Of a stretch of 64,000 nucleotides of DNA, positions 1,908-34,822 are shown piece by piece. Location: the IMG/VR virus record IMGVR_UViG_3300045135_002242, positions 31,790 to 95,789 of that record; one strand, written 5' to 3'. A model generated the notes under the pieces. The model made no database searches and was not told where the DNA came from. It was given only the letters and a program-made list of their open reading frames with translations. This stretch comes from a virus. Position numbers and translations under genes: made by a program. Position 1 is the stretch's first letter; each line of letters opens with the position of its first letter.

Positions 1908-2309
1908 TTGTCTATTACTAAAGTAGCATTTGAAGACTTTGCCAAAAACCCTAAAAGCTATTACAAATCTAAAGTAGCTTTTCCTGAATATCCTATATTT
2001 GTTAACAGTAACGGAATGTTTACAAACTATTATATAAAAGTAGGCAAGCAAGGAAAACTTAACCTGTGCTATGGGCAAAATAAATCTTTTTACCTGTCTG
2101 GAGAGCTAGTCTTTTCTGCTGACCGTGGATTACTAAACAGACAAAAGGTTATTTTACCTACATTATCGTACTTAGGGAGACTACTCCCAAAAACTATAAA
2201 AATATACCAGGATAACTTAGAAACCTACAAAAAAACTTATGAAAACGCAAAAGCCAAACTGGCTACCATAGATAAGTTAAAAAATGACTACCCTGAGCTG
2301 ATACTTTAA
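1908..2309 (+). CDS. Hypothetical protein in recombination block
   Basis: A 133-residue protein beginning with TTG at 1908, placed 6 bases after a strong AAGGAGG at 1896-1902 that overlaps the end of the nuclease gene. It is basic and aromatic-rich, with a probable helical C-terminal half (residues 85-130). No known domain was recognised. Its position between a RecB-like nuclease and a Sak4-like ATPase suggests a helper in DNA recombination, by location only. Confidence 0.7.
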   Translation: MSITKVAFEDFAKNPKSYYKSKVAFPEYPIFVNSNGMFTNYYIKVGKQGKLNLCYGQNKSFYLSGELVFSADRGLLNRQKVILPTLSYLGRLLPKTIKIYQDNLETYKKTYENAKAKLATIDKLKNDYPELIL

Positions 2310-2319
2310 AGGAGTATAG

Positions 2320-2982: not shown

Positions 2983-3010
2983 TCTATAAATTATAATATA
3001 AGGAAATCTT

Positions 3011-16955: not shown

Positions 16956-17122
16956 TTGCTAACTTACTTCAATCTATTGGTATAGTATTTACATTATTAA
17001 TTATTGCATTTGTTGTAGTGATTTCTATGTATTTATCTTACATCATAGGAGTAAGCATAGTAATTATAGCTTTAATATTTATTACTTATCATATTACCTC
17101 TGCACTTAAAAAGAATAAGTAG
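16952..17122 (+). CDS. 56-residue double-span membrane protein
   Basis: ATG at 16952 overlaps the preceding TGA, ending with TAG at 17120-17122. Almost the whole protein is hydrophobic: one span at residues 8-27, a short turn, a second at 29-48, then a basic KKNK tail. This is the shape of a small holin-like or membrane-regulating peptide. It is the last gene of the rightward operon and its end overlaps the end of the opposing 1390-residue gene by 17 bases. Confidence 0.65.
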   Translation: MIANLLQSIGIVFTLLIIAFVVVISMYLSYIIGVSIVIIALIFITYHITSALKKNK

Positions 17123-20100
17123 ACTCTTTTAGCAGCGCTGGTGTAATAAAGTTCATAAAGTTTTCTGCTGGGCTGTATATTGGAAATACATTTCCTGGCC
17201 CCAGAGAATCTCCATACCAGTCTTTTACTAGGAAAGATTGTTCATGGATACTAGGAAAACCTCCCAAGAAGCCAAACGCAGCAGCGCCAAAAGCGGCTTT
17301 GAGGGGGGCCCTACTACCGCTCTTTATAATAATTCTTTGAATACGCTTAACATATTTTGTGAACATCAAAATACCTACCCGGTTTAGGTACTCTTCTATT
17401 CTGCTGGACGGCTTTGCATAGTTAATAAAATCCTCAACTAGTTCGTACTCTCGTTGTGTTTTAGCCTCCTCAAGAAACTGCTTTCGCTCTGTTCCGGTTA
17501 GGCGTTGTTTAGGCTTATAGTCTTTGCGTTGTTTTTCCAACCACCAAGCCGGTAGCATACGGTGACCATCAGCCTGTTTCTGAGTAATTTTTTTCTCTAA
17601 TTGATTTTGCACATCCCTTGCCATTAAATCATTAGTTTCTAGAAACTCATTTGCAACTCTATAAAACATGGTACGTCTGGTAATAAACAAAATGTCTAAA
17701 CCATCACGTACAAGCTCAGGAGCTTTTTGCAGCTGCTCATCAATAGCACTGGTAATACGGTTAGTATCACGAGCACCCTCATTAGTAACGTCTTCTACGT
17801 TTTGGTCAAGACCCAGTTGAACTAGTTCGTCAATGGGGCTATCTTTCATTCTACGTTTCGTAGCGCCCAGCTCCCCCTGGACCTTAACTAATTCCTGCTC
17901 TACCGCGCTTCTACGCTGGGCCGATAGTACGTCTCTACGCTTAGCCGCATTCAATTCCCTTTCTCTATTTTCCAGTTCCTGTACTCTTTTAACATCTTTG
18001 TCATAAGCCTTAATGTTACGGTAACTTTCTACGTACATTTTTATAACTGTGATTGGGTCATACCCTCTCATTGCGGCGTACACAAGATTAGCAAAAATAT
18101 TACTTAACAAGATAGTTGGCATTTTCAAAAGAATGTTAGTTTTAACAATCTTAATCATTTCCACCCACATCATTTCTGCAAATTTGATAACTTTCATCAA
18201 TACAGGTGGAGTGATTTTTGCCAAGCCAGGGAAATTTGCAATACTGATATGGCTGTAGCCAAAGAATAAGTGGTGCAAGTCTGCTCTTACAGCTAAAGTC
18301 TCATCTGCCCTATTTTGAATAAACTGTTGAAACTCTCTTGGCAGCATGTAGTACAGTTTACGCATTTCTGGGTCAGGAGCTTTAGGCCCAATAATTGTGT
18401 AATCAGTTATCCCATCCTTACCTTTCGATCCTGCATTCCAGTTTTCGTACATATCTTTTTTTAAGATATCTAGTGCTCTGTTGTTGTGCTGAGCACTCAT
18501 ATCCTTATCAAGGAGTGTACCAAAAGATCTAGCCATTACTTCAGATATTCTAGTATCTTGTTTTAACAACTCTTTTTTGGTAGCTTTATCCATCATGTAA
18601 CGGTAATCTACTACTTTCCCGTCTTCATTAATGACAGGCACAACACCAAATACTGTGTCAGTAAAATCGTATTCACCTTCTTCCATTTTCTTTGCACGAG
18701 CCGTAGCTTCTCTTTGGATATTAGCGATATCTCTTTTAGCTCTTTCCTGAATAATTCTACTACCAATATTTCCTGCGTCTTTGTAAGACAAATCAGTAAC
18801 AGTCGTACCTTTAGATTTAATCTGGTTCAGACGTACACCGCCACGTAAACGATCTGGTCTACTAGCTGTGTCAGTAACGTACAGCGCCATAGGTTTGTTT
18901 CTTGAGTCACCTGCCCTAGGAGCTAGCTTAGCCCTAAACACAAAGCCTTGAGCTTCCATAACTGCTCTCTCTTCAAGAGGAGCTACTTCCATCATAATAC
19001 TGTCATCAAAGACTTCACGAGTATAGCCTTTTATCTTGTTAGTCTTTTTACCCTTAAATACAGTCTCGTCAGAGTTTTTCTTAAACCCTTCTACTACATC
19101 AGCAACATGCTGAACACCTTTCCAATCCTTTTCCATAAGATCAGCAACCATCATACGCTGGTCTTTGTCAGTATTCTTAAGTGCAACTAATGTCGCTAGT
19201 TCGTCAATAGCTTTAACAACGTCAGCATTAGGTTTTTTACGATGAGAGCTGTGGATACCACGTGCAATATTAAACGCATTAAGGTTTTGCTCTGGCGTAC
19301 CTCTATGAGTAGCCATGTAAATACCTAAGCCTACTGCCTGGTTAGAGTGCCAGTTATAGTGTTCACCATCAATGTCTTTGAGAGCGCGTTTAGTGTCTTT
19401 AATAAAACGATCCAACGTCTCATCATCAACTAGGAGCTTACGTAGCGTAGCGTTATCATAGATAGTCTTACGAATATCCATATATTTTGCTACTGAATCT
19501 TTACCAAACAAAGCCGCTAAGTCTGTATCTGCAATTACTGCAGTCAGAGCTTCTTCATCTAGTTTAGTAACTTCTGTAGTTTCACCAAACTCGCTAAGAG
19601 TATTCTTACGAACTAGGTCAATCTGGTTGTTACGCAGTTTATCAATGTAACCTGACTGCAGTGCCAAGAACTCAACTACTTTTTGTGTGCTGTCTGTAGC
19701 AAACATACCACCAATAATTTCACGCAACGCACTATCAGGTTTCATACCCCACGCAGTAGCAACCCCACCCATAGCTCTAGTGTATGCTGGGTTAACAATA
19801 GACAACCCAATAAACTTAGCCACCCATGTAACTTTACCGTATAAAGTATCTGGAATAGGTTCTAGCTGTTTACTTACAGCATCGCCTAAAATCTTATTTT
19901 TACCTTTATCTAAAGCTCTAGCAGCCTTATCCTCTAGGCCGTTAACTACGTCAAATACAGCTGTTAAGAAGTTACCTTTTTCTGACAGGTCACGATTAGC
20001 TTTAGTATTAATTTCTCCTAACCTGAAAGCTAGGTTGACTAAAGCGTCATGTACATTGTCGTGTTTTTGTTTTAGCGTAAAACCTTTTAGAATCTCTAAT

Positions 20101-21278
20101 ACTGTGCTAAAGAAATCGTTAATTCTTTCTAGTATACGACGGGTATCTTTGCCTTCTTTAATCTTTACGTATTTAAGAGCATTAGCTACTTCTGGTACTG
20201 CTAGTGCTTTAGCAATAAACTCGTAGTCTGCGTTTTTACCTGTAAAAATGTAGTTATATAACCACTTTGCCTGGGCTTCTTCAGCTACCTTATCGATAGA
20301 CTCCTTAGGCATAAAATTTTTCCAAGTAACTTGTTTACGCGCAGTCTCAATAAAATTTGATAATTGGCGTTTAAGTTTAATGGCTTCAGGTACGTTAGAA
20401 TGCATAGCGGACGCAGTCATGGAGTGAATAACTTCTTCCATGTATATAGATGCTTCTGACTGTTGGTTGCCTTTAGCACGGGGGGCGCTGTTAACAGCCA
20501 TATCAATACGTCTAGCTCTAGCAACACCTTCAGAACGATCTGCATCCTCCTTAACGTATAGCTCTAGAGAGCTAAAGAACTCTGGGGACATACGGTCAAT
20601 TAGGTCTAAGTAAACGTCTAGCTCTTCTTGGCTAGCTTTCTTACCACCTAGCAAGTGCAGTTTCTTAAGCATATTCTTCATATGCTCTTGGCTGCCGTGT
20701 ATGTAGTCTTTATTACGGTATTCTTCTTTCAGCTTCAGCTTTGTGTCACTACTGCCAAACACCACTTCAAGCTGTTTTGCCTGCTCTTGGTTATAGTTGT
20801 AATTATCTAGAAACTTACGCAACCCTGGTATATTAATGTAGGAACCAGGCTTTTTACCCTCAAGGCTTTTGCCATCTGAAGATAAAAGAAAAGTATAAGC
20901 TTCAGGTAACCCATCCCGTAAAAACTCAATACGAATACTGCCGTTGGCAACAAGTTTTGCGCCAAGTAAGGTGCCTTCTTTTACTTTTTTAGACGTACCA
21001 TAAGTAAACTTAAAGGTAGCGCCAAATACTTCTCTAAAAGTACTTTCTAGCAACTCTTGTTTAGCAGTATTCTGTTTTTTTACAGCCCCTTGGGCCTCAA
21101 TATAAGAAATGTTATTCTCTTCGGTAGCTTTCTTGAAAGCGTACAATTCCTCTAGAACTTCTTGAGCCTCAACTGTCTCAATCTCAGCTAAAGTTTTATC
21201 TTTAAGAATTTCTTCGTAGTGTTTGATAAAGTCTTCAACAAGGTTACCAAACATATTTAAACTAGTACAAGAAGACAT
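17106..21278 (-). CDS. Virion RNA polymerase C-terminal domain, as a separate 1390-residue protein
   Basis: The 1390-residue protein starts at ATG 21276-21278, overlapping the stop of the 2431-residue gene (TAATG), with AAAGG 5 bases upstream. N4 virion polymerase is one chain of about 3500 residues with a C-terminal domain of about 1400 after the catalytic core; this product has the matching length, place and strand. It is helix-rich (long coiled stretches near 1080-1130) with a hydrophobic stretch at about residue 1055 and an end PIYSPAENFMNFITPALL. No polymerase motif is present. In N4 this domain is tied to packaging of the enzyme in the head. Expected to be a virion protein injected with the DNA. 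Confidence 0.75.
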   Translation of the reverse strand: MSSCTSLNMFGNLVEDFIKHYEEILKDKTLAEIETVEAQEVLEELYAFKKATEENNISYIEAQGAVKKQNTAKQELLESTFREVFGATFKFTYGTSKKVKEGTLLGAKLVANGSIRIEFLRDGLPEAYTFLLSSDGKSLEGKKPGSYINIPGLRKFLDNYNYNQEQAKQLEVVFGSSDTKLKLKEEYRNKDYIHGSQEHMKNMLKKLHLLGGKKASQEELDVYLDLIDRMSPEFFSSLELYVKEDADRSEGVARARRIDMAVNSAPRAKGNQQSEASIYMEEVIHSMTASAMHSNVPEAIKLKRQLSNFIETARKQVTWKNFMPKESIDKVAEEAQAKWLYNYIFTGKNADYEFIAKALAVPEVANALKYVKIKEGKDTRRILERINDFFSTVLEILKGFTLKQKHDNVHDALVNLAFRLGEINTKANRDLSEKGNFLTAVFDVVNGLEDKAARALDKGKNKILGDAVSKQLEPIPDTLYGKVTWVAKFIGLSIVNPAYTRAMGGVATAWGMKPDSALREIIGGMFATDSTQKVVEFLALQSGYIDKLRNNQIDLVRKNTLSEFGETTEVTKLDEEALTAVIADTDLAALFGKDSVAKYMDIRKTIYDNATLRKLLVDDETLDRFIKDTKRALKDIDGEHYNWHSNQAVGLGIYMATHRGTPEQNLNAFNIARGIHSSHRKKPNADVVKAIDELATLVALKNTDKDQRMMVADLMEKDWKGVQHVADVVEGFKKNSDETVFKGKKTNKIKGYTREVFDDSIMMEVAPLEERAVMEAQGFVFRAKLAPRAGDSRNKPMALYVTDTASRPDRLRGGVRLNQIKSKGTTVTDLSYKDAGNIGSRIIQERAKRDIANIQREATARAKKMEEGEYDFTDTVFGVVPVINEDGKVVDYRYMMDKATKKELLKQDTRISEVMARSFGTLLDKDMSAQHNNRALDILKKDMYENWNAGSKGKDGITDYTIIGPKAPDPEMRKLYYMLPREFQQFIQNRADETLAVRADLHHLFFGYSHISIANFPGLAKITPPVLMKVIKFAEMMWVEMIKIVKTNILLKMPTILLSNIFANLVYAAMRGYDPITVIKMYVESYRNIKAYDKDVKRVQELENRERELNAAKRRDVLSAQRRSAVEQELVKVQGELGATKRRMKDSPIDELVQLGLDQNVEDVTNEGARDTNRITSAIDEQLQKAPELVRDGLDILFITRRTMFYRVANEFLETNDLMARDVQNQLEKKITQKQADGHRMLPAWWLEKQRKDYKPKQRLTGTERKQFLEEAKTQREYELVEDFINYAKPSSRIEEYLNRVGILMFTKYVKRIQRIIIKSGSRAPLKAAFGAAAFGFLGGFPSIHEQSFLVKDWYGDSLGPGNVFPIYSPAENFMNFITPALLKESTYSF

Positions 21279-24200
21279 TATTTACCTTTACATAAATTCT
21301 GAGTAAGATCTGTTAACTGAGGGTAAGTTACGCCGCTAACTTCCATTTCCTTATCAATATTATACCCTTTAGGTTCTAGTTTCTCAACTGGTTTGTGGTT
21401 AATCGTGCCAGCTTCAACCGAGTAAACGCCTTCTGCTGTGCCTGCCATATGCATGATTTTAGCGCCCTTATTAAGGTCACCGTAAAGCTCTTCACGTTTA
21501 GAAGCTACTTCATTAGCCAGCACAGCAAAGCTATTATAGTTACCAATTACAAAGTTCTTAAGAGAAACTTTAATAGGCTTACCCTCTTCATTTTTATCAT
21601 CAATTAAAATCTTACTATATTTGCTTTCACCTGTCGGGATCATATCAGCAAATCTACCGAGGGATTTACCAATTTCATAAATAAAACTATAGTTATTGTT
21701 AACCTCTAGTACTTGCTTATTATACTCTTTTTGCGCTTCTGCCATATGTACTAATGGAGGCATAATCGCATCATGAATTAAAGTAATACCTCGAATATTT
21801 GCTTGGGCCAACCCATTAATAGTTTGTGCCATAATAGCGCCATCAATATAGTGAATAGGTACTACAGAGCCTGCTGCTACTGCTGCAGTCATCTGTTTAA
21901 TCATATGACTAACACGAATATCTTTCTGCCCAAGCTTTTCCTGGAGAGCTTTAGAGAGGTTTGCACGAACGGGTTTACGACCGCCGTAAGAACCGTATGG
22001 AGAACTGGTTTGTACCGCATACACGCCTATGCCATCCCCTTCCATAAACTCTTGTTCCATGTTACTTAGTGGACCTTTAATCATTGGCCACTGCTGCTTC
22101 AGGTCTTCGTAAATCTTGTTTTCCATATCAATGGTGACAGGACCTTTCTTACGAGCTTCTTTCAGCTTCTCTTCAAAGGATACTGAAAACATTTCAAACA
22201 TAGCACGGAACGCAGAGTTTACTTTGTCTTGGGCATTTACAAAGGGCCCAAATTGCTCCATCAAAATCTTTTCAACTTTAGCGCCGTATGACCCTTCAAT
22301 CATCTGAGACAAATATCTATCCATAGAGTACTTAGCCCCAGGCACTCTTATCTGGTGCATAGGTTTATTACGAATAGTATCCTGCAACTCTTCCAAACTC
22401 ATTTTGTCATTAGCGTAAACTTTCATCAAGTTTAGGATAGGCTGGTCTTTTTCTTTAGTACTCTTCAAATCAACTTTAGCCATCTCTTTAGCTAAGCCTG
22501 TCATCATGTCACCAGTAAGAAGATTCTTACGAATAGACTTGATAGACGCAGAATAATTAAATGTCATAAATGGGTATTTGAACAAGTTACGCAACGCTTT
22601 ATCGACATTACCTGCAGTGTCTACTTTAGGTAACGCACCCAGCAAAGCTTCCCATAAGTTTTTATTATAAGGACTATCATTAATGATATTACCTTTTTGT
22701 TCTTTGGTTTCAGCTAATAAGTCTGCAAAAGATTCATCAATATTATCAGAAAACTTAACGTCTTTAGCTAGGGTTTGGTAACTATCTCGCACATTACCTG
22801 AGTCAAGAATATCATTCATACTCTTATCCGTGACAGCTTTTAAAACTTCATCAATATCAAACACCACACCAACTTTCTGCAGCCATTTTTCCCTGTCTGC
22901 AATAATCGGCATTTGCATATTCTTCAAACCAAAACCACTAGTTACTGCGTCAAATTCAGCAGTAATAGCGCTAGTAACTTTACCTTTAAGAGAACCTTCT
23001 ACAAACTTAAACGCCTGAAGTGCATGGCCTAGGTGCTCAATCTCAATACCTAGGGGCTTAAACTTCCCAGTTTTTAGTAGTGCTCGCCTAGCCGCTTTAA
23101 TCCTGGCAGGAGTCTTAAGACGAGTAAGGATTTTCTCCGCAAACTTGTTAATTTTTGCTGTGTCTTTTTTGTCAGTAGCAAAACCAAAAGCTTGCGCTAA
23201 TGCAAAATTAACTTCCTTAGTGACATCTTTTCTGCCAACTTTAAACTTATTACCTTTACGAATATACGTAGCAATATGGGATGCAGGTTGTACTGCAAAA
23301 CGATGTAGGTGCTTATCGGTCTGTGGATTGATAGTGTTGCTATCTACAAAGAAACGACCGTTTTTAGAGAAAAAGTAGTTAAACCACATAGATATAGAGC
23401 TGCCCTTAGACTTAGTCAGCCATTCCATCTCTTCAAATGACTTTTCAATGCCTCGGTTGATAGACTCTTGCACTTCTTTTTCCTCAAAAGAAAGTTCTTC
23501 GTATTCCGAGCTACCAATCTCTATGTACCCTAGACGTATCTTAATCAACTCTTTATTGTCAATCATTTCACGCATTAAATCTAAATCTGCAGTCCACTCA
23601 GTATCCATCGCTTCTTTGATAGCGTCTTGAGAAGGGCCTGGAATATTAAGACCTAGGCGCTCTTTACGAATCTTAGCAACCGCTTTGTTTTTAACCTTAT
23701 CTTTTGGAGGATGAAAACTAGGTTCTTTACGATTAACATCGATGTCAGGAATTACTTCCGCAATTTCTTTAGCGGCTGCAGCAATTTTAGTAAGACGTTG
23801 TTCAGTTTTTTCCTTAGCTTGAATAAAGATAACTTTGGCACCAGCGCCTCTATCTAAACCTTTACCCGTTTTTTTGAGCACTGTCTTTGCAAACTCTGCA
23901 GCGGTTAACGAGTTATCAAGTTCAAGCAATCCATCAGCTACGCCCATAAGCAGCGCAGTCTGGCCAAGATCCGCAACTAATGCATCATAGGATTGGGCAT
24001 CAGATTCACTATCTGATTTACGTGCCAAGCCCAACATGCTAGCAACGTCTTTACCAATGCTATTGGCAATAGTTTTATATAACAGCCCTTTATCACTAAG
24101 CATTTCTACTGCTTCACGACTAATCTGAGTTTCATCAATACCAAGAATCTCAGCAAGATCCGCTTTAGTTTTCTTGCCTTTTTTGAGTAGATAGCCACTG

Positions 24201-27200
24201 TTTTTGATAAAGTTGTTAAGCCCAAGTTGAGCCGCAATAGCAACGTTTTCGTTAACCTTCATGTCTTGGTCAAAAATCAAACTGGACGCTGGGCTATTTG
24301 TAAATGACAAAATACTATTTTTAGTACCGTTAAAATCTAGGTTTGGCTTATCAATAGCAGCCTCAAGAAGCTTAACTGCCTGATTAACCATACTGTTAAA
24401 CTTTACCCCTTGTTTGCCAGCAATACGCATCTCTTTAGCAGGTAAGGTATTAAATGGTGTAGCCTTATTTACTGTTACATAGTTATTAGGATCAAGATCA
24501 AGTACTTGGTAGGATACTTTTACGTTACCATTTTCGTCTTTTGGTAAGTTATAAAGGTTAGTTGTAGGCCTAACAAAATCACCGGTCTTTTCATTAAAAT
24601 AGGTGTAAGCTTTCTTTTTATCTTTACCAATAGCATTATACAGCATATCTTTAGCAATCTGCATAGGCTTGATTCCCAAGGCTTTAGCTGTTTCTTTTAA
24701 CCATTGATTAAAGTCTAGTTCACCACGCTTAGCCTCTTCCTGAGCGCTTTTCCAATCAACTAGGAAATCTTCCCCGTCCATCAATTCTTTAATCTTAGTT
24801 TCTACTTGCTTAGTGCCTTCAATTGCCGCAGCCATGGTTATTTTACCGGCTTTAGCTCTTTCTATTACACTACCCATTGCTTCGCTAAGATCTAAGGATT
24901 CTAGCCCATGTTCTAAAGCAACTTCCAGCAGCTCTTCGTAAACCTCATTAGACTGTTTTGCAGTTTGTGATTTATAGTAATCCCGCATTGCACTAACACC
25001 TTTAGGGAATAAGGCTTTAGCTTCTTCAACAGTCTTATTATATCTATCTGCCTGAGCCTCAGTAACTTCCCCTGCTTCTAGCGCAGATACTATTGTGTCA
25101 CTACTAATAGAGGCTTCTAACTCCATAGCTTTAAGCACACGACGACGTAAACGTACCTTTGCTATTTCAGCTTTCTTAGCTTTAGCTTGTTTGCTTCGAA
25201 TAGGTTCGGCTTTTGCTTTAGGTAAGTACTTAGTGACACCATCTTCTTTAACTTTCTTAAAGTGGTAGTTAGAAAGTAAACGGTGTAAGTAATTATTTTT
25301 ACGAGAACCTGCATCAACAACAATAGTAGCACCGGCTTTGTAGGCTTTTTCAAGTTCTTTACGAACCTTGGAATCTTTACTAAAAGATTTAGCGTTAGTA
25401 TTAATAACTACCACATCATTTTCAGTATACTCACCCGTATTAATCTTAGAGCCATTATCCTGAGCATAGTCACCTTTACTGCCCCACTGAGGACTTGGTG
25501 ATTCTCCTATAATAGCCTTTGTAACACCAACTTTTTCGTAGAATTTGCGGTCTGCGTCACGACTATTTTGTTTGCTTGGGTTAGGACGTACAGTAATACC
25601 TGCAAGAGAACTAGGGTTATCTTTTCCTAAAATTGCGTCTACTTGTTTACCATAGAGCTCTTTGGTACGTGTCAGGTAGTCAATGTTATCTTGAATAGTA
25701 TCGCTTAACGCTTGAGAAGACGGATGTACACTATACACACCATCATTAACAGATACAGATACAAAGTTGTCTTTATAACCAGGAATACGGTAAGTTTTTT
25801 TAGGTTTGACAAAAATAGTTTTACCAGCAGCGGTCTGCTCATTGTAGTTATTTACATCCGCTTTTACCTGATTTAGTACAGAATCGTAGGCTTCTTTACG
25901 AGTTTCCTGAGAAACTAAGAAACGATCCACCTTGTCCACTAACCTAGCGACTGCTTTACGGCTAGGGTTAGGGGTGTTAACAAGAGTGCGGAGCTGATTG
26001 CGATAAGAGCTAGCGCTACGCTCACCAGTGCCCAAGGCCTCTTCGTGTACTGTGTAGGCATCTTTACCTTTAATACGTGCTTTACGGATTGTCTCAAAAC
26101 GTAGCGCAGGAACTTCATTAGCTTCCATGTAGGCTTTAACAGCCTTTTCTTCCTCAGCAGTAATATCTAGTTGCCCGTCTTTAACATCCATAGTGTTAAC
26201 AAACTCAGTAACTACGTCTTCAGGAGTAAAGCCTGACCCAAGAGTAGGTTGGTCTTCATCAGTTAAAAAGTTACGGAAAATTTCACGTTTAGATTTACGG
26301 AGCAGCTTAAGAGCTTCTTCGTCAGTATCTTTAGCATTCTCCTGTCCCCTACGAGACTCGAGAACTGCTTCTGCTTTTTCGATTTCATCGTAAGCAGCGC
26401 GATATCCTGTAGAATCTTTTTTCAGCTCTTCAACTAGGTTAGGTGTCGGTACTACGGATTCATCCGCATCTGCAAACATGGTAGCTGCAGCTTCTGTATC
26501 ACTAAACATAGAACTGTATTTAGCAACAGTTTTGTCCGCAAAAGTATCAGCAGCTTCACGTCTAGCTGTAATCTCTTCCTCAGATGGCTCTTCTTCAGCT
26601 ACCTGAGTGTCATATACAGAAGGTTCTGGTGCAGTAGCAGATTCAGACTTTTTAATTTTTTCCCCAAGTGCTCCGCCTGCTTTGCTAATCCCACCCACAA
26701 CTTCTGCTGTAGCAGGTAGTACTGCACCAATAGCCTCAAACTGTGGGGCACCTCCGGCACCTGCTAGCGCTGCTATACCAGCTTCTGTAGTATTACGCTC
26801 GTCCTGCAAAAAAGCCGTAAATTCTTCCACATCGCTAAACTTCTCTGACCCGTACCTAGAGTTGAACAACTCCATCATAGTTTGCGAGTATTCTTGTGCT
26901 GCCTCTTTACCCATATTTATTGCCGTAGCAGCACTACCTGCAGCCATTGCTTTAGCTACTTGAGCGAACTCACGGTTGGTCATTGCTTTTACTGCAGGAA
27001 TTGCAGATGCAATCATCCCAGGATTTTTAATAATACTAAAATCAACCAGTTTATCTAGGTTCTGGTTTACCATTTGAACAGCAAAACGCCCAGCAAACCA
27101 CTTAGCCTTCTCAGCACCCTCTAGCTCTACACCATTGTTGTTTTTAACAAATTCATTATATTGACTATTCACCTGCCCCATAGCAGAAACCATAAAACCA

Positions 27201-28573
27201 GACTGTGCGGTAAGGGCAGCTTTAGCCCCATCTATCGACAAGAAAGCTGCAGCCTTCTGCGCTCTAGCAGCAGCTTTAGTAATCTCTCCGGCTTCTACTG
27301 CAGTATCAATTGCTTTAGCCGTCTTTGCGAATTTAGAGCCAACACCAATAGCTTTAAGGACTGCTCCTGGGGTAACCCAGGAAGCTAGCATACCCATGCT
27401 GGTGCCCCACATCTCTGGGGTAATAAATGCTTCTAGGGCACCATTACCAGCAGCCCTCATACGCTCCGCTACAGTAGCATCAGAGTCAGCAACAACCTCC
27501 CACTGCTTACCAATCTCTTCCATAGCACGTTCGGCTTGTACCGGGTTATAACCAAAAAAGTCCTGTACTGCTCTAGTATTGTCTTCAGTTTCCCCAATAT
27601 CATAAAGCCCTGTTAGATCTCCTACAGCATCTACAGGGCTTACAATAAGAGAATCTACAAAACTAGAGCCTAAACCTGCAAGAGTATTACCTACTCTATT
27701 AAGAAAACCCCCTCTATCGGCTTCACGCTCTTGCATCTCGCGCACAATATTGGATAAGGCTGCCCCCTTACCTACAGTGCCTTCAGAAGAGCGTAGTTGC
27801 TGTACATCCGTAAGATAGCGCGTAAACAACTCTTGTCCGAGAGTTTGATCAATTTCGGCAGGAGCACCTAATAACCCTTCACGACTAGAGTAATACTCAC
27901 TAGCACCACTACCATAGGCGTCAGATAATTCAGGATCCCCATAACGATCTTGTACAATTCTATCTTTTAAAGCCGCTTCACGTCCATGGCCAAGGCCTTC
28001 TAGCATAGTAGCTACATCATAAGGTAAGAGGACATCTAAACGCTTGTCTTCTACGTCTACACCATACTCTCCTGGAGCCCACCCATAGTCTCCTGGAAAC
28101 CCGGTATCTTGGTAACGAGCTTCAGAACCTTCAATACTTCCCTTTGCCACCCCAAACTTTACTTCCCTACCTCTATTCTTGGTACCAAACATGTACAAAC
28201 GTCTAGTAGGTCCGGTGTAAGATTCACCAGTATCGTAAACTACATTACCTGCCTCATCTTTAGTTAAGGTATAGTTATCTAGTCCGTACTGAAGTAAGCT
28301 TTGATATTCTTGGTCACTAAGATCATTCCAGATCTTATTTCTGTTACTTTCTAGCCTGCCGCCACCCAAATCAGTATAAGAGTTATCTAAAGACGCTCTC
28401 TGATTTACCTGAGACATCCGCTCCAGTTTATCTTCTTTAGCTTGAGCTAGTCGCTGACTACGTTCTACGGCTTCATTGCTTGTACCAAAGTTCTCAAAAG
28501 ACACATAACTTTCAGTAGGAGTTACGTCTGCTAGAGTTTCTTGAGGAGTGTCCCAGTTGTTTAGATCGGCCAT
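21278..28573 (-). CDS. Virion RNA polymerase, N-terminal plus catalytic domains (2431 residues)
   Basis: A giant single-subunit, T7-like RNA polymerase carried in the particle and injected to transcribe early genes. Motif A is TAEFDAVTSG with Asp 1875; motif B is R1995-NLF-K1999-YPFMTFN-Y2007, with the same R/+4/+12 spacing as N4; motif C is TLIHDAIM with His 2267-Asp 2268. The two Asp residues are 393 apart, against 392 as I recall for N4 (Asp559-Asp951 of the core). The first ~1300 residues are helical, alanine-rich, with Gly/Ala hydrophobic patches (350-560) that may help cross membranes. The chain ends about 163 residues after motif C, where N4's core also ends; the rest is the next gene. 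Confidence 0.93.
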   Translation of the reverse strand: MADLNNWDTPQETLADVTPTESYVSFENFGTSNEAVERSQRLAQAKEDKLERMSQVNQRASLDNSYTDLGGGRLESNRNKIWNDLSDQEYQSLLQYGLDNYTLTKDEAGNVVYDTGESYTGPTRRLYMFGTKNRGREVKFGVAKGSIEGSEARYQDTGFPGDYGWAPGEYGVDVEDKRLDVLLPYDVATMLEGLGHGREAALKDRIVQDRYGDPELSDAYGSGASEYYSSREGLLGAPAEIDQTLGQELFTRYLTDVQQLRSSEGTVGKGAALSNIVREMQEREADRGGFLNRVGNTLAGLGSSFVDSLIVSPVDAVGDLTGLYDIGETEDNTRAVQDFFGYNPVQAERAMEEIGKQWEVVADSDATVAERMRAAGNGALEAFITPEMWGTSMGMLASWVTPGAVLKAIGVGSKFAKTAKAIDTAVEAGEITKAAARAQKAAAFLSIDGAKAALTAQSGFMVSAMGQVNSQYNEFVKNNNGVELEGAEKAKWFAGRFAVQMVNQNLDKLVDFSIIKNPGMIASAIPAVKAMTNREFAQVAKAMAAGSAATAINMGKEAAQEYSQTMMELFNSRYGSEKFSDVEEFTAFLQDERNTTEAGIAALAGAGGAPQFEAIGAVLPATAEVVGGISKAGGALGEKIKKSESATAPEPSVYDTQVAEEEPSEEEITARREAADTFADKTVAKYSSMFSDTEAAATMFADADESVVPTPNLVEELKKDSTGYRAAYDEIEKAEAVLESRRGQENAKDTDEEALKLLRKSKREIFRNFLTDEDQPTLGSGFTPEDVVTEFVNTMDVKDGQLDITAEEEKAVKAYMEANEVPALRFETIRKARIKGKDAYTVHEEALGTGERSASSYRNQLRTLVNTPNPSRKAVARLVDKVDRFLVSQETRKEAYDSVLNQVKADVNNYNEQTAAGKTIFVKPKKTYRIPGYKDNFVSVSVNDGVYSVHPSSQALSDTIQDNIDYLTRTKELYGKQVDAILGKDNPSSLAGITVRPNPSKQNSRDADRKFYEKVGVTKAIIGESPSPQWGSKGDYAQDNGSKINTGEYTENDVVVINTNAKSFSKDSKVRKELEKAYKAGATIVVDAGSRKNNYLHRLLSNYHFKKVKEDGVTKYLPKAKAEPIRSKQAKAKKAEIAKVRLRRRVLKAMELEASISSDTIVSALEAGEVTEAQADRYNKTVEEAKALFPKGVSAMRDYYKSQTAKQSNEVYEELLEVALEHGLESLDLSEAMGSVIERAKAGKITMAAAIEGTKQVETKIKELMDGEDFLVDWKSAQEEAKRGELDFNQWLKETAKALGIKPMQIAKDMLYNAIGKDKKKAYTYFNEKTGDFVRPTTNLYNLPKDENGNVKVSYQVLDLDPNNYVTVNKATPFNTLPAKEMRIAGKQGVKFNSMVNQAVKLLEAAIDKPNLDFNGTKNSILSFTNSPASSLIFDQDMKVNENVAIAAQLGLNNFIKNSGYLLKKGKKTKADLAEILGIDETQISREAVEMLSDKGLLYKTIANSIGKDVASMLGLARKSDSESDAQSYDALVADLGQTALLMGVADGLLELDNSLTAAEFAKTVLKKTGKGLDRGAGAKVIFIQAKEKTEQRLTKIAAAAKEIAEVIPDIDVNRKEPSFHPPKDKVKNKAVAKIRKERLGLNIPGPSQDAIKEAMDTEWTADLDLMREMIDNKELIKIRLGYIEIGSSEYEELSFEEKEVQESINRGIEKSFEEMEWLTKSKGSSISMWFNYFFSKNGRFFVDSNTINPQTDKHLHRFAVQPASHIATYIRKGNKFKVGRKDVTKEVNFALAQAFGFATDKKDTAKINKFAEKILTRLKTPARIKAARRALLKTGKFKPLGIEIEHLGHALQAFKFVEGSLKGKVTSAITAEFDAVTSGFGLKNMQMPIIADREKWLQKVGVVFDIDEVLKAVTDKSMNDILDSGNVRDSYQTLAKDVKFSDNIDESFADLLAETKEQKGNIINDSPYNKNLWEALLGALPKVDTAGNVDKALRNLFKYPFMTFNYSASIKSIRKNLLTGDMMTGLAKEMAKVDLKSTKEKDQPILNLMKVYANDKMSLEELQDTIRNKPMHQIRVPGAKYSMDRYLSQMIEGSYGAKVEKILMEQFGPFVNAQDKVNSAFRAMFEMFSVSFEEKLKEARKKGPVTIDMENKIYEDLKQQWPMIKGPLSNMEQEFMEGDGIGVYAVQTSSPYGSYGGRKPVRANLSKALQEKLGQKDIRVSHMIKQMTAAVAAGSVVPIHYIDGAIMAQTINGLAQANIRGITLIHDAIMPPLVHMAEAQKEYNKQVLEVNNNYSFIYEIGKSLGRFADMIPTGESKYSKILIDDKNEEGKPIKVSLKNFVIGNYNSFAVLANEVASKREELYGDLNKGAKIMHMAGTAEGVYSVEAGTINHKPVEKLEPKGYNIDKEMEVSGVTYPQLTDLTQNLCKGK

Positions 28574-28849: not shown

Positions 28850-30613
28850 CTACGGAGGAGTAGTCCTAGCTGGTGAAGCTACAGAAGGACTGCCTACACC
28901 TGGGTGAAAGTCTCTGGGAGGAGTAGGGTAAGAAGCATTAGTTCTTTTAAGAAGCTCTTCTTTTAGCTGTTTTAGTTTAACCTTTTTTTGCTCAAAGTTT
29001 TCTAAAGCTCGCCTAGACATCTTTGCAGGATCGTAAGTACCTTCTCTTACCATTCCGGCTATACGCTTCTCCACTTCCGCTATAGCATTTTCAGTATCTA
29101 GAATTTCTAGACTGATTCTTTCATTTCGATTAGGCTTCCCATCCTCTCTCACATTTACATCAAAAGCAGGTCCAAGTTCAGCAGCCAAGGTCCTAGCAAT
29201 AGGGTTTCCTAAGTTACTCTCCCCCAGCTGTCTTTCTAGAGTGTTTACTGAAGGTTTAGTCCCTCTCTGCAATACAAACGTATCTGGATCTGGAGTGCCA
29301 TCAGGGTTATTCATCTGATTATCCCTACTGGGGATTAAACGGTCAAATTCAGGATTTAATGGCAGTCTAGTGCCCCTTGGAGTAAAGCCAACAAGGCTTT
29401 TTTGCAGTTCTTCTAAGCTACGTCCTTGAATAGGTGTGTATTTGTATTCATCTCTGTCAACATACTTACTACCAGAAGAATTTGTACGCATACCTCTTTG
29501 CAAGGCCTCTGCTTGTTGTACTACTTCTCCAAACTCATCACTTGTTGTGGAAGGAAATCTCTTACCTCCTACAAGAGAAGTCTTAATGCCATACTTAATT
29601 GCAGCTGCAGCTACATCAGGAGAAATGCCTTTATCTAATAGGATATCAAACCCTTCTTTGGCGTCGTCAGTATCCCACCAACCAATATCAATATCAGCTA
29701 TGTCTGACATAGCCTTTAAAGCGTCTTTTATGCCTGCCCTATCATTAGAGTATCTTTTACCTCCTGCGTTAGCTCTGCTAATATAATCATCATAAAGATC
29801 AATATTTTTAAGAACTGTGTCATTAATGGCCTGCACCCTAGCATCTTCACCAGCTCTAAGTTCTTGTTTAGTAATACCTCCAACAATATCGCCTAGGTAC
29901 TCTTTAGTCTTAGCAGGGTCCATACCAGCTTTTACAGCAGGATCCATACGACCTAGTAAGGCAGTTACACGCTCTCCCTTCGTCAAACCTTCGCCAGTAC
30001 TGATACGATTTTGAATTTCTTCTAGCCTGTTACCATAACGCTCTTCTACAAAGTTATTAATAGCAGCCTGAGTCTCCTTAGGGGTAAGGTCAGAAAACTC
30101 TAATTGATCCTTAAGGTTAATAAGGTCTAACTCACGTTGGGCTACCGCTCTATCTAGATCTCCTGGAGTAAGGCCAGAGGACTCCATACTTTTTCGAAAA
30201 GCCTGCGTAGCCGCCTGGACATCTTTACTACTACCACGAAGAAAAGCTTCGGTAGCTTTCATTTCTTTATTAGTTTCATCAATAACTTGGTTATAAGCGT
30301 CTTGGAGACCTTCAGAATAGTCTCCTAGAATGTACTTATCAGGAGACTCGGTTAGTGTCCACAGAGCTTCTCTGGCTCCTTCTGCTTCAGCAATTTTAGC
30401 AAGACGTTCTTTTTCAGTCGCAGCTGCTCTGGCGTTGTGTATATCCCAACGCCTTTTGTTTTCCGCATCAGCTGCTGCTTGACGAACAGCTTCTGCCTCA
30501 TTAGCTGCCTGGTCTAGGTAGCTTCCCGAAAGGTTAGCCAAGGACGTACTAATATCTTGCGTCCAGTTAGTACCACCTCCCGGTACTGTTACATAAGTGC
30601 CTTGTCTAGCCAT
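28850..30613 (-). CDS. Internal virion protein, helical (587 residues)
   Basis: A 587-residue alanine- and glutamate-rich protein, largely alpha-helical, with coiled-coil stretches at residues 30-85 and 530-560. It ends in a proline-rich tail (SYPTPPRDFHPGV ... ARTTPP) before an amber stop. It lies directly upstream of the virion polymerase gene in the late operon, where N4-like phages place proteins ejected with the polymerase. No enzyme motif seen. See the in-frame extension at 28664. Role as an ejected internal protein is inferred from position. Confidence 0.75.
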   Translation of the reverse strand: MARQGTYVTVPGGGTNWTQDISTSLANLSGSYLDQAANEAEAVRQAAADAENKRRWDIHNARAAATEKERLAKIAEAEGAREALWTLTESPDKYILGDYSEGLQDAYNQVIDETNKEMKATEAFLRGSSKDVQAATQAFRKSMESSGLTPGDLDRAVAQRELDLINLKDQLEFSDLTPKETQAAINNFVEERYGNRLEEIQNRISTGEGLTKGERVTALLGRMDPAVKAGMDPAKTKEYLGDIVGGITKQELRAGEDARVQAINDTVLKNIDLYDDYISRANAGGKRYSNDRAGIKDALKAMSDIADIDIGWWDTDDAKEGFDILLDKGISPDVAAAAIKYGIKTSLVGGKRFPSTTSDEFGEVVQQAEALQRGMRTNSSGSKYVDRDEYKYTPIQGRSLEELQKSLVGFTPRGTRLPLNPEFDRLIPSRDNQMNNPDGTPDPDTFVLQRGTKPSVNTLERQLGESNLGNPIARTLAAELGPAFDVNVREDGKPNRNERISLEILDTENAIAEVEKRIAGMVREGTYDPAKMSRRALENFEQKKVKLKQLKEELLKRTNASYPTPPRDFHPGVGSPSVASPARTTPP

Positions 30614-30627
30614 AGTATTTATTATCC

Positions 30628-30993
30628 TTAAAGAGCGTTAAACGAGCTAATATTTCTATTACGTCGGGCTTGTTCATCTCTAGCTGTATCTAGGTTGAAT
30701 TGCAAAGCTTGGTTCTGCAGCTTAGCATTTTTTAGCAAAACAGGTAAAGAAGCTGCCTGTAATAAGGTGGAGGCTAAACCTGTGACCCCCGCCATTTTAT
30801 CAGGGTTACTGAGCCAACCCCCTGAAACGCCTCCAGAAAGGCTGTCTCTTAACGTACTATCCATACTAGTTTTGGCAAGAACATCTTCTGGAGACATAGT
30901 ACCTGCCATAAGTTCCTTCCTAAAATCTGCGTTTCGGTTAGCGAAGTAACTGTCTAGTTCAGAGTCCTTTTTACCAAAGAGGGAAAAACCCAT
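30628..30993 (-). CDS. Small internal virion protein-like
   Basis: A 121-residue protein with N-terminal FSLFGKKD, a Gly/Ser-rich middle with a weakly hydrophobic stretch (residues 68-85), and a helix KNAKLQNQALQFNLDTARDE ending in QARRNRNISSFNAL. That end pattern is common in small internal head or core proteins of podoviruses that come just before the large ejected proteins. Its own promoter lies at 31038. Confidence 0.65.
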   Translation of the reverse strand: MGFSLFGKKDSELDSYFANRNADFRKELMAGTMSPEDVLAKTSMDSTLRDSLSGGVSGGWLSNPDKMAGVTGLASTLLQAASLPVLLKNAKLQNQALQFNLDTARDEQARRNRNISSFNAL

Positions 30994-31037
30994 ACTTATA
31001 CTCCTTATTAATAAGTGTAATTTTGCGCAATTAATTT

Positions 31038-31066
31038 ATTATACTATATAATTAATATATTATCAA
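31038..31066 (-). promoter_or_regulatory. Sigma70-type promoter for internal virion protein genes
   Basis: TTGATA (31061-31066), 17-base spacer, TATAAT (31038-31043) on the minus strand, overlapping the end of the 626-residue gene. A TGCGCA palindrome lies just downstream at 31024-31029, the same word as in the ParB-region cluster. Confidence 0.65.
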
Positions 31067-32924
31067 ACGCTGAATCGCTGTAGTCAGCTTTGCGTAATGC
31101 CTGTTTAGTGGTCCTCTGAATATTCCCCATAGCCAGTGTTCCTCCCCCTCTTTCATAAGGCAGATCGAATTGCTCAGTATATATAGACCAATCAGCAGTA
31201 GCAGGTCTTGCATATACTCTAGCAAAATGCATAAGAATATCGTTTTCTCTAGATAACTCCTGAGAAAGCTGTTCCCATTCGGCCTTTAAATCTCTGTTCC
31301 TATCATTTAAAGACTCAAGCTTTAGCTGCTGAGGTAGCATAAATAGGTTAACCATTTTATCTAAAAATGATAGACTGCTTTCAGTAAGGTTACCACTAAC
31401 TAGGTCTAAAGCACCTTCTATAATTTTTTCTACAAAGTCCGTAACCCGTTCTTTTACTGCCTCTTGCAGACCTTGCTCTAAACTTTTTTGCAGGGCCTTT
31501 GATAAACTATTTACAAGTAAAAATAAGCTAGCAATCATAACTAGGGGCTCAATAGTCTTATTTACTTCCATAAAAGCTGCTGCCATGCCTTCCATACCAA
31601 GAGCAGAAAAAGCCAAAGAAAACAAAACCAGTACTAAACTAGCTGTAACAATAGCAGTGGCTAAGGCTTGCGCAGTAAGAGCTGCATTCCCTAAACTTAC
31701 TACTACCGCCACTACGAAAACAATAACGGCTAAAGCTTTTTTCCACCACTTAACCTTCTTTTTTGTGTAGCCTGTATCAATAAGCCTAACAATATAGGAA
31801 TTAAGCTCCTTAAAGGTTAAGTTGTAGGCTCTTGGGTTACTAAATACATCTGCTTTTAAATAGTAAAAACCTAAATAATAGTACCATAAATTACTATAGT
31901 CAGTATTCAGTTCCTCTGCCTCATCCTCAAAAAGGCGATAAGTACGGGTAACTAGGTCTGGATCCGTCTCTAGGTCACTAGCGTCCATAGCACGTATGGC
32001 TTGGCTAGTATAGTAAGAATTAGGAAATGAAAACTTTGGGGTATTGGCACTATAAGTAAGAGCAGAATGGTCTTTTAAAAGATCATCTACAATACTTTGG
32101 ACAATACTGGAACTACTGGCAAATTGGGTGTAAGGAAGCTCTAAAGTAACCACATAAGTATGATAGACCCTACCTTCTGTTGTAGTACCTATGCCTATTT
32201 CAACATCTTTAATATTAGTAGCTATAGTACCATCTTTCAAGGCATAACGCGCTATGGTAGCCAACCAAGGATCATTAGGTGTTAAGTCGTCTTCATCAGG
32301 AGTAGTAATTTTGGTAACAGGGTCAGTAATACTTCCTTTATTGATAACACCAACACCTTGTTGGGATATTAAACTAGTGTCCCACAAAGTTTCGTAATTA
32401 TTTTGAATAGCTGAAATTAAAGTTGGTAAAGACCAGTAAGGATTTAGTACAGTAGTAGTAGTAGGAATAAAGTCTCTGCCTGCACCTGTACCTGCATTTA
32501 TATCAGCCTCAATAACTATTGAAGTAGTGAGCGTCAGCCCTTCTGGTAAAGGGCCATCAGCGTAGTCCCACCACATAGTATTAAGGTTACTAGCAACAAA
32601 GTCCTTGTAGTTACTCTCTAGCTCAGCAGCATCCGCAGCAGGAAGTTCGCTACCTTTATTTTTATTTAAGTATACAAAAGCGTTTGTTACACCTTCTGGA
32701 TCAGAAGAGTTTTCAATATCATTATAAATACCTAAGTATTTAAACAGCTTTTCATAATTAGAAGGACGTGATGTATCAGGGTAGTAGTACCTTCTAATAG
32801 GTAGTACTTCTACTTCCCCAACAGTAGTGGTTCCCCATAAGCGTTTAAACTTACGGGCACCTCCGACATTTTGAATAAAGTCAGCTCTAAGAAGTTCACC
32901 AAGATCAGGCTGAGGACGTTTCAT
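31044..32924 (-). CDS. Virion structural protein with hydrophobic central segment
   Basis: A 626-residue protein in the block between the second tail fibre and the internal proteins. Residues 1-390 look beta/mixed and acidic. Around residues 395-490 are three to four hydrophobic spans (LAVIVFVVAVVVSLG, ALATAIVTASLVLVLFSLAF, PLVMIASLFLLV) after a KKKVKWWKK basic stretch, then a helical end. Such a hydrophobic patch in a virion protein suggests membrane insertion during DNA entry, for example forming the channel for the giant polymerase. Family not recognised. Confidence 0.7.
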   Translation of the reverse strand: MKRPQPDLGELLRADFIQNVGGARKFKRLWGTTTVGEVEVLPIRRYYYPDTSRPSNYEKLFKYLGIYNDIENSSDPEGVTNAFVYLNKNKGSELPAADAAELESNYKDFVASNLNTMWWDYADGPLPEGLTLTTSIVIEADINAGTGAGRDFIPTTTTVLNPYWSLPTLISAIQNNYETLWDTSLISQQGVGVINKGSITDPVTKITTPDEDDLTPNDPWLATIARYALKDGTIATNIKDVEIGIGTTTEGRVYHTYVVTLELPYTQFASSSSIVQSIVDDLLKDHSALTYSANTPKFSFPNSYYTSQAIRAMDASDLETDPDLVTRTYRLFEDEAEELNTDYSNLWYYYLGFYYLKADVFSNPRAYNLTFKELNSYIVRLIDTGYTKKKVKWWKKALAVIVFVVAVVVSLGNAALTAQALATAIVTASLVLVLFSLAFSALGMEGMAAAFMEVNKTIEPLVMIASLFLLVNSLSKALQKSLEQGLQEAVKERVTDFVEKIIEGALDLVSGNLTESSLSFLDKMVNLFMLPQQLKLESLNDRNRDLKAEWEQLSQELSRENDILMHFARVYARPATADWSIYTEQFDLPYERGGGTLAMGNIQRTTKQALRKADYSDSAFDNILII

Positions 32925-33802
32925 TAGACATACGTGGGAATAGCGTCATCGGTAGTAGTAGTAGCCGCTCTAAGGTTTTTAGCAGTATCTAATACAGTAT
33001 TTAAAAGTACTTCGCCAGGCTGACCTGGCCCAAACTCTGCATATTCAGCCGCAATAGCACTACCTAACATAGCTGCAGAACCTGTTAATGCGTTTGCCCA
33101 AGCATTATAAGTATACCCTTTGGCCTGTTCTTTCGCAATTTCACGTTGATTATCGCTAAGAGGGGTATAAGTACCGTGATTAGCGGTAACGGTAGCAATA
33201 CCTGATTCAGTAAGGCCAGTGTAAGAGTAATTACCATAGTTTACATAAGTATCAGCAACAATTTTATGAACAGCTGCTTGAGACTCTGCTACCTTTTGTG
33301 TAACTAAAGTGCTTTCTTGGTTAACTTTCGCAATTTGCGAATCTGTAAGCAGCATATCCTTATAAACTTTACCGTCATTACCCAGAGATGTAATCTCATC
33401 TCCAGTAAATACTGCAGTACCGTACATACGTTTAGACTCTACTTTAGCTAAGCGTGTAGTATTATTAATTTGGTCTATTTGAGCGGTTTTGGTTAGCACT
33501 TCTTGATCAAGAATATCAAGCTGTTTCGCTAGTTCTAGCTTCTTTAATGCAACATCTTTTTCCGCACTAGCCCAAGCCATTGCAGTACTTAGGCTGGAGC
33601 TATTAATGTTGTTAACCACCCCTCCTACGATATTAGCAATAATTTCTGCTTTTTGTGATTCGTCAATAGAGCCATTATCCACCAGTTCCTGGATAGTTTC
33701 TTTAGCCCTGATGTAAGCAGAATTGCTGGATAAAGCCTGCTTAACTAGGGTCTCAAACTTTTCTGCTACATCTAATTCGTTAGTAATTGTGATAGTAGCC
33801 AT
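32924..33802 (-). CDS. Helical virion protein
   Basis: A 292-residue protein, helix-rich and alanine-rich, with a coiled-coil region at residues 80-125 and an alanine-rich stretch near 240-260. The stop overlaps the start of the 626-residue gene. It resembles the next gene (33804) in overall style (repeated AxxxQxxIA helices), so the two may form one complex. Taken as a structural or ejected protein by location. Confidence 0.65.
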   Translation of the reverse strand: MATITITNELDVAEKFETLVKQALSSNSAYIRAKETIQELVDNGSIDESQKAEIIANIVGGVVNNINSSSLSTAMAWASAEKDVALKKLELAKQLDILDQEVLTKTAQIDQINNTTRLAKVESKRMYGTAVFTGDEITSLGNDGKVYKDMLLTDSQIAKVNQESTLVTQKVAESQAAVHKIVADTYVNYGNYSYTGLTESGIATVTANHGTYTPLSDNQREIAKEQAKGYTYNAWANALTGSAAMLGSAIAAEYAEFGPGQPGEVLLNTVLDTAKNLRAATTTTDDAIPTYV

Positions 33803-33803
33803 A

Positions 33804-34340
33804 TTACACTACCTCGTATTTAGGGGAATAAACAGCATTAGGATCTGCTACCTTGTCTGCTTCCGCATTTTTCATTACATTGTCTAAACCAAGCTTAGCA
33901 GCCTGTTTATCCTTAAGAACTTGTTCCGTATACTGTAAAGCTCGTCTAGATACACCATCAAGCAGTGCTTCAGAATCCTGAGTTTGAAGAAGATCTATCT
34001 CTTCCTGTAACTTAATAAGCTGTTCTGGGAGGATGTTATCTACCTCATACTGCTTAGCTAGTCTTTCCACTTCAGCAATTTCTGCCTGTTTAGCTTTTAA
34101 AGCAGTACCTGCTACAACATCGTCAATTTGAGCTTCTGTAAGCTGTTCCTGCAGTACAAATTGAATACTTTGTTGCAGCACTGACTGAATGCTACCTAAA
34201 TAGACTGTAGCGTAGTCGCTGCCCGTAATTCTGTTGTTAAGATATTGAGTTTCAATCTGGTTATTAACTGCTGTCATCAGCTTGTCAAATATACCCGTAC
34301 CTGAACTATTTGTAACACTATCTAGTTGGAGGTCTGCCAT
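33804..34340 (-). CDS. Helical virion protein
   Basis: A 178-residue glutamine- and alanine-rich coiled-coil protein; segments such as SIQSVLQQSIQFVLQEQL and EIAEVERLAKQYEVD indicate long helices. It is the first gene of the internal-protein group and is preceded by an extended -10 promoter (34371). Probably a virion component; no family recognised. Confidence 0.65.
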   Translation of the reverse strand: MADLQLDSVTNSSGTGIFDKLMTAVNNQIETQYLNNRITGSDYATVYLGSIQSVLQQSIQFVLQEQLTEAQIDDVVAGTALKAKQAEIAEVERLAKQYEVDNILPEQLIKLQEEIDLLQTQDSEALLDGVSRRALQYTEQVLKDKQAAKLGLDNVMKNAEADKVADPNAVYSPKYEVV

Positions 34341-34370
34341 AGTAATTCCTATAGGTTAATTTCATTAGTT

Positions 34371-34379
34371 ATTATATCA
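34371..34379 (-). promoter_or_regulatory. Extended -10 promoter candidate
   Basis: TGATATAAT on the minus strand (TG-n-TATAAT), 30 bases before the ATG of the 178-residue gene. No good -35 at 16-18 bases. The 93-base gap 34341-34433 holds nothing else that I can recognise. Confidence 0.45.
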
Positions 34380-34433
34380 GCTTTTAAAATAATTGCACTT
34401 TATTATTTAGAAGGTACGAGATGGGTGTAATTA

Positions 34434-34817
34434 TTAGCTAGGGGGCACAGGCCAGCTTACATTGTTAGGATCGTTAGTTATACTAGGGAGATCTCGAAGA
34501 GCTTGACGGTAAGCGGCCCAAGCATCTTTGTCTGCAGTTGCATCTGAGAGCTGAGTCCAATCTGTAGCCGCAAGTTTCCGGTTTCTCTCAGCCCTGAAAT
34601 GGCGCCAGAGTTTCTGCTCGTCGACTGGAGGGACATAAGGCAACAGCTCATTATTCTCTCCAATCTTGTATTTATCCGGATCTATAATAAGCCCTTCCGG
34701 AACTTCAATAAAGGTTTCACCCTCTTGCGTGTTCAGCTCTCGCATAGCCTCAGGCATATTTACTACTTGGCGAATAATACCTGTTTGGCTATCAAAAAAA
34801 GCATACGTCTTATTCAC
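34434..34817 (-). CDS. Tail fibre assembly chaperone (Phage_tail_APC-like)
   Basis: A 127-residue protein. The last 50 residues carry the typical pattern WRHFRAERNRKLAATDWTQL, then AWAAYRQALRDLP and a WPVPPS end, as in phage tail assembly chaperones. It sits 6 bases after the 925-residue tail fibre gene, as usual for such helpers. Probably assists folding or attachment of that fibre. Confidence 0.85.
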   Translation of the reverse strand: MNKTYAFFDSQTGIIRQVVNMPEAMRELNTQEGETFIEVPEGLIIDPDKYKIGENNELLPYVPPVDEQKLWRHFRAERNRKLAATDWTQLSDATADKDAWAAYRQALRDLPSITNDPNNVSWPVPPS

Positions 34818-34822
34818 TTTAC

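Follow-up and report, generated by a model that had tools for sequence, protein, structure and literature searches.

The window analyzed here, a stretch of 64,000 nucleotides (positions 31,790 to 95,789) of the 95,789-bp IMG/VR virus record IMGVR_UViG_3300045135_002242, contains a locus for a virion RNA polymerase (vRNAP) of the N4 type. An N4-type vRNAP is expected to be one chain of ~3500 residues without cysteine; the locus in the window consists of two open reading frames (ORFs) on the minus strand, encoding chains of 2431 and 1390 residues (pieces 1 and 2), each with a single cysteine at the junction end. The sequence was read again, and both ORFs, the TAATG overlap, the ribosome site, and the closure of the piece 2 frame two codons upstream of its ATG were all found as first described in the initial annotation. 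The features of the locus are as follows.

21278..28573, minus strand: vRNAP piece 1, 2431 residues, with the N-terminal domain and the single-subunit RNA polymerase domain; the sole cysteine is residue 2428, fourth from the C-terminal end
21287..24601, minus strand: RNA polymerase (catalytic) domain, piece 1 residues 1325-2429, from a domain hidden Markov model (HMM) and profile alignment to N4 gp50
21290..21292, minus strand: Cys2428 codon TGT, in a tail ending DLTQNLCKGK before the stop; an invariant column in the piece 1 alignment of the split clade
21285..21289, minus strand: AAAGG, a ribosome-binding-like site preceding the piece 2 start, read directly from the sequence
21276..21280, minus strand: TAATG stop/start overlap (TAA 21280-21278, ATG 21278-21276)
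17106..21278, minus strand: vRNAP piece 2, 1390 residues, the C-terminal domain (C1 and C2); the sole cysteine is residue 4
21267..21269, minus strand: Cys4 codon TGT, in the head MSSCTSLN...; an invariant column in the piece 2 alignment
21024..21278, minus strand: putative docking head, piece 2 residues 1-85, from an AlphaFold2 model
20424..20438, minus strand: position of the C1 HExxH motif, degenerate (EEVIH) in the window

Domain identity and recurrence of the split

To assign the two proteins, profile comparisons with N4 gp50 and other vRNAPs were performed, and both proteins aligned in colinear order. Piece 1 matched positions 314-1884 and piece 2 positions 2293-3375 of PHROG 2206 (virion RNA polymerase, 3406 positions), indicating that the two halves are colinear. 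An HMM of the polymerase domain, for which N4 was combined with further fused vRNAPs, five split ones, and the Alteromonas phages PT11-V19 and R22Y, spanned residues 1325-2429 of the 2431 in piece 1. Because the match runs to the last residues, the cut lies at the end of the catalytic domain, as had been proposed for a split N4-type vRNAP. Piece 2 was aligned with the C-terminal domains of five fused vRNAPs, N4 gp50 among them, with an hhalign probability of 100 (E 1e-85, 1053 columns), confirming the earlier view that the 1390-residue protein is the vRNAP C-terminal domain. In the profile alignment, the N4 catalytic motifs EADGVTNG and AKNPLTITIYG were paired with EFDAVTSG and FKYPFMTFNY, and the Asp of the HDAI motif, invariant across the split clade, is inferred to be equivalent to N4 D1948. 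A PDB profile search gave no match with piece 1, and the match of the C-terminal domain was the N4 vRNAP; Pfam searches of both halves, and of the middle pieces of the three-piece systems described below, returned nothing significant. N4 gp50 (HELVH 2228) and most relatives keep an intact HExxH motif in C1; in the window and the sequences closest to it the motif is lost, reading E-E-V-x-H.

The same split was found in Alteromonas phages AD45-P1 to P4, whose pieces are 41% and 53% identical to those of the window and have the same cysteine arrangement, and ~16 further contigs encode a split vRNAP with identity down to 28%. A same-site split in all of these genomes is not a sequencing error, and on this comparative evidence the vRNAP split is real and old. 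The alternative that one chain is still made by read-through or frameshifting, or that the split reflects an error in gene calling or sequencing, has in its favor a 'potential frameshift' feature in the GenBank entries of AD45-P1 to P4, as well as the fact that in most split systems the adjacent genes overlap or almost overlap. However, the split occurs in many independent genomes at 28-57% identity, the second frame is closed upstream, and every second piece has its own start. Moreover, whole extra genes lie between the pieces in L005, L014, and L082, L088 and L155 have unrelated genes in the 3.5-6 kb that separate the pieces, and the breaks that are likely sequencing errors (L114, L064, the L088 3' end, and Shigella phage pSb-1) have no cysteine. 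We therefore regard this alternative as extremely improbable.

The AD45 records (KF005317-KF005320, NC_021532; L001:8624-20306) have the frameshift feature and no coding sequence for either vRNAP half, so that both proteins are absent from protein databases. The two AD45-P1 ORFs were noticed in PMC10654107, where a gene-calling mistake or read-through was suggested and the ORFs were joined; the cysteines go unremarked in the portion of that article available. The survey of N4-like viruses in that article excluded, by its methods, vRNAP matches below 2500 residues, a filter that would lose many split vRNAPs, including that of the window. A genome scan with the piece 2 alignment (A3) added only L115 (CALIBI010000067.1); this contig is from a closely related phage (57% in piece 2, cysteine pair present) and was mis-binned in a metagenome-assembled genome labelled Sulfolobales archaeon. 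In L035, an in-frame TGA (L035:1105-1107) lies inside the polymerase piece before the HDAI motif and is an error or a mutation.

In the wider tree, the split label requires at least five changes. The fused vRNAP of L020 is nested within the split clade, and a tree grouping the splits without L020 was rejected (p-AU 2.8e-5). In L020 the polymerase passes directly into the C-terminal domain; the junction segment is missing and both cysteines are gone, which suggests from this case that fusion removes the cysteines. If L020 were instead ancestrally fused, with parallel splits around it, the cysteine pair would have been gained repeatedly and independently.

Cysteine placement at the junctions

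N4 gp50 has no cysteine in 3500 residues, and nearly all of the several dozen fused vRNAPs examined are likewise free of it. The lack of cysteine in the N4 and Achromobacter vRNAPs has been attributed to the need to pass the tail (PMC3915230), and the same absence was noted and ascribed to injection via the tail in PMC10747016. Our panel covers 25 split systems with 28 junctions and 53 pieces, 90,967 residues in all. Of its 58 cysteines, 56 are no more than 6 residues away from a junction end, and cysteine is present on both sides of all 28 junctions; for the first 22 split systems, the count was 50 of 51 at junction ends. At 0.74%, the rate in the other genes of the window, ~670 cysteines would be expected in the panel, compared with the 58 observed. 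Cysteine is avoided in vRNAP chains except where the chain is cut.

The head cysteine is at position 3, 4, or 6, never 2, and both TGT and TGC codons are used. A fixed cysteine with two codons and a varied position points to a constraint on the residue itself, which is compatible with a side-chain bond. A nucleotide-level cause, such as a TGT-rich ribosome site, was rejected on the same codon usage, the variable spacing, and the existence of non-adjacent genes. A split intein or trans-splicing was also rejected, as no intein family was among the Pfam or PHROG matches and the head cysteine never directly follows the Met. Positions -3/-7/-11 before the tail cysteine and +2/+6/+13 after the head cysteine are recurrently hydrophobic. 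The sequence flanking the junction cysteine is poorly conserved across deep lineages, whereas the cysteine itself is retained at every panel junction.

The middle pieces of the three-piece systems (776 residues in L005, 408 in L014, and 641 in L082) have exactly two cysteines, one per end. In L014 the gap had been flagged beforehand, after L005 was seen, as the place for a two-cysteine piece, and its 408-residue gene has Cys3 and Cys407. The three middle genes (L005:14181-16511, L014:8265-9491, L082:7361-9286) carry HExxH motifs, two of them in L005. From their sequences, the L005 and L014 pieces resemble a duplicated C1 domain, and the middle pieces could possibly be an injected metallopeptidase.

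Other cut sites follow the same arrangement. PT11-V19 and R22Y, both cultured Alteromonas phages, are cut between the N-terminal domain and the polymerase (1000/2082 and 1008/2083 residues), with single cysteines at 997 and 6 in PT11-V19 and at 1004 and 6 in R22Y. The N-piece of PT11-V19 showed no similarity to N4 with hhalign, and it is therefore called the N-terminal domain on its position and size; a scan with PT11/R22Y gave no further relatives. L088 and L155 are also cut between the N-terminal domain and the polymerase, and L010 is cut between C1 and C2. Separated genes still have the cysteine pair: the N-piece lies 3.5 kb from the polymerase piece in L088 and 3.9 kb in L155, and the intervening stretches hold other genes. 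Because the polymerase piece of L155 starts with MSYRKC, an N-piece was predicted there and then found, with 1017 residues and a sole cysteine at 1014. The L081 polymerase piece starts with MSTDAC, and the contig stops before any N-piece. The last scan yielded one new split system (L132), which fits the cysteine rule, and about a dozen new fused vRNAPs, all but one of them cysteine-free.

Once the cysteine rule had been formed, the crAss-like phage crAss001 was consulted to check it on an injected RNA polymerase unrelated to the vRNAP. Its gp47 has a sole cysteine 3 from the end, gp49 a sole cysteine at 5, and gp50 cysteines at 5, 1334, and 9 from the end. In phi14:2, three adjacent genes (gp078, 1797 residues; gp077, 2180; gp076, 1421) have exactly four cysteines, all at the facing ends: the last residue of gp078, residues 3 and 2179 of gp077, and residue 3 of gp076. 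All three are annotated as virion proteins detected by tandem mass spectrometry, and gp077 is the polymerase of PDB 6vr4, which we take to belong to an RNA polymerase superfamily other than that of the N4-type vRNAP. In another crAss-like phage, cr10_1 (MT774382), a 4460-residue protein (L171:33028-46410) has seven cysteines, one of them 11 from the end, and the ORF from L171:46391 onward has a cysteine at 5; the ends are similar, though the preceding chain is not cysteine-free.

The junction ends of L155 also occur outside polymerases. Its tail is homologous to that of the L164/L168 pair over 57 residues (39%, E 5e-9) and its head over 70 residues (36%, E 4e-9), each with the cysteine, and no other significant similarity was found between L155 and this pair. 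L164:9867-14036 encodes 1389 residues with a sole cysteine at 1386, and L168:7468-13971 encodes 2167 residues with a sole cysteine at 6; L168 has an ADP-ribosyltransferase polyvalent domain (ART-PolyVal) and no polymerase match. By sequence, the L155 tail and head appear to be a matched, portable coupler, and their joint retention in L155 and L164/L168 is the best hint of mutual binding. L164/L168, a second pair of giant proteins, lies within a single record of 101.7 kb (G002); either the coupler reaches beyond vRNAPs or the record is chimeric. A tblastn search with the coupler heads alone gave no match in annotated phages.

Proposed coupling of the pieces in the virion

The 2025 cryo-EM analysis of the N4 vRNAP resolved a series of beads: the N-terminal domain, a ~100-residue linker, the polymerase, a 23-residue linker, C1 (with HExxH), and C2; the ejection channel is ~35 angstroms wide, and the C-terminal domain autoinhibits the polymerase (PMC12633501). 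The conserved cuts in split vRNAPs fall at the N4 bead boundaries, and three different boundaries are used. From this, together with the cysteine-poor chains and the cysteines on both sides of the junctions, we infer physical docking, a disulfide, co-injection, and reduction in the host, and we consider it fairly likely that the pieces are coupled in this way. Translation would yield separate vRNAP chains, and each would stop where one folded bead meets the next. The C-terminal tail of one piece would dock on the N-terminal head of the next, restoring the order after translation, and the lone cysteines on the two sides would form an interchain disulfide in the virion. A single tail-to-head thread could then pass the narrow phage tail like a single-chain vRNAP, and the reducing host cytoplasm would open the bond, freeing the polymerase piece from the C-terminal domain.

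The initial annotation had suggested that the C-terminal domain could be packaged and injected as a separate subunit or made in a different ratio. The two halves are indeed separate at translation, but the facing junction cysteines suggest that they are probably joined in the virion. Nothing supports synthesis in different ratios, and the one-to-one cysteine pairing is suggestive of an equal ratio.

In an alternative explanation, the pieces would be independent subunits whose terminal cysteines form homodimers or attach to a metal, a lipid, or some other protein of the virion. In favor of this, the pairing between the pieces is a proposed one, and a lone terminal cysteine could anchor to many things. 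A single cysteine per chain at the junction end across systems argues against fully independent subunits and for tail-to-head rejoining: the cysteines are on the facing ends, the outer ends have none, each middle piece carries precisely two, and the L155 tail and head are matched by a homologous tail and head in L164/L168. Homodimers would leave the junction-specific ends unexplained. In addition, cysteine is absent from the seven window proteins encoded directly upstream in this operon (28850-37600), some of which are probably co-ejected. Independent subunits are thus unlikely in our judgment. One gene of this region (34823-37600) encodes a tail protein with a collagen-like stretch and a chitin-binding module (CBM5/12) whose match is weak and falls below the curated cut-off.

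A docking of tail and head that is non-covalent, with the cysteines aiding packing or giving a transient bond, would fit the recurrence of hydrophobic residues around both cysteines and the predicted helical head. In the AlphaFold2 model of the piece 2 head, helices span residues 7-26, 32-53, and 57-85, and Cys4 caps the first helix; the mean pLDDT is 59.7 overall, with 10-residue block means of 62-88 across residues 11-90. Yet it is the cysteine, rather than its flanks, that deep lineages have kept, and we hold this explanation to be quite improbable.

Several observations weigh against disulfide-linked coupling. The disulfide is a putative bond, and virion assembly takes place in a reducing cytoplasm, so that such a bond would have to form late or after lysis. 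The AlphaFold models of the piece ends are of low confidence at both ends. Cysteines also lie away from the junctions in Cys 1510 of L082 piece 1, Cys 1371 of L155 piece 2, and the internal Cys 1334 and the C-side cysteine, 9 from the end, of crAss001 gp50, and some fused vRNAPs have internal cysteines (two in L053, one each in L095 and L152). Breaks without cysteine were found in L059, L064, and Shigella phage pSb-1 gp101-103; L059 and L064 come from one sample with scattered Ns, homology is nearly continuous across the break, and these two are probably sequencing errors. Finally, the panel systems are related by descent, and the cysteine counts are not independent, so that the raw probability of the pattern is not a p-value and is much smaller than can be accepted at face value. 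The proposal draws its weight from cuts at several different sites, from the three-piece systems, from genes that are not adjacent, and from the crAss-like phages.

Relation to known injected and modular proteins

The single-chain vRNAPs of N4 gp50 and the Schitoviridae (PHROG 2206) share with the system in the window the domain order, the polymerase and C-terminal domains, the scarcity of cysteine, and an operon place beside putative ejection proteins. They differ in that the split systems have two or three chains with a lone cysteine at the junction ends, whereas the single-chain members have essentially none. The Crassvirales cargo RNA polymerase proteins (phi14:2 gp076-078; crAss001 gp47, gp49, and gp50) are likewise giant, co-packaged, injected, and in three pieces with cysteines at the facing ends. 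Bayfield et al. (PMC10172136) reported disulfides between the tail hub and ring proteins, and the available part of that article describes no disulfide in the cargo proteins.

In modular synthases, docking domains set the order of the chains, with the C-terminal tail of one recognizing the N-terminal head of the next; these contacts are non-covalent, and the proteins are not exported. By analogy, such docking domains may be alike in principle to the coupling proposed for the vRNAP. No report of junction-cysteine stapling of vRNAP pieces was found in the open-access literature searched. We lean slightly toward the view that stapling chains tail to head through terminal cysteines is a device in general use among phages (in Schitoviridae-like phages, Crassvirales, and polyvalent-protein podophages), which would provide a reducible covalent thread and swappable cargo, such as the HExxH middle pieces, and would have evolved in or been shared between unrelated lineages.

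So far, split vRNAPs have entered databases as frameshifts, been taken for mistakes, or been lost to length filters. How several megadaltons of folded enzyme pass, in order, through a tail channel of ~35 angstroms is an open question (PMC12633501). If the proposed coupling is true, joining successive chains by a reducible staple would account for part of this ordered ejection, and it would be a new way of assembling a giant injected machine from parts. The stapling idea makes a sharp prediction for the well-known phages phi14:2, crAss001, AD45, and R22Y.
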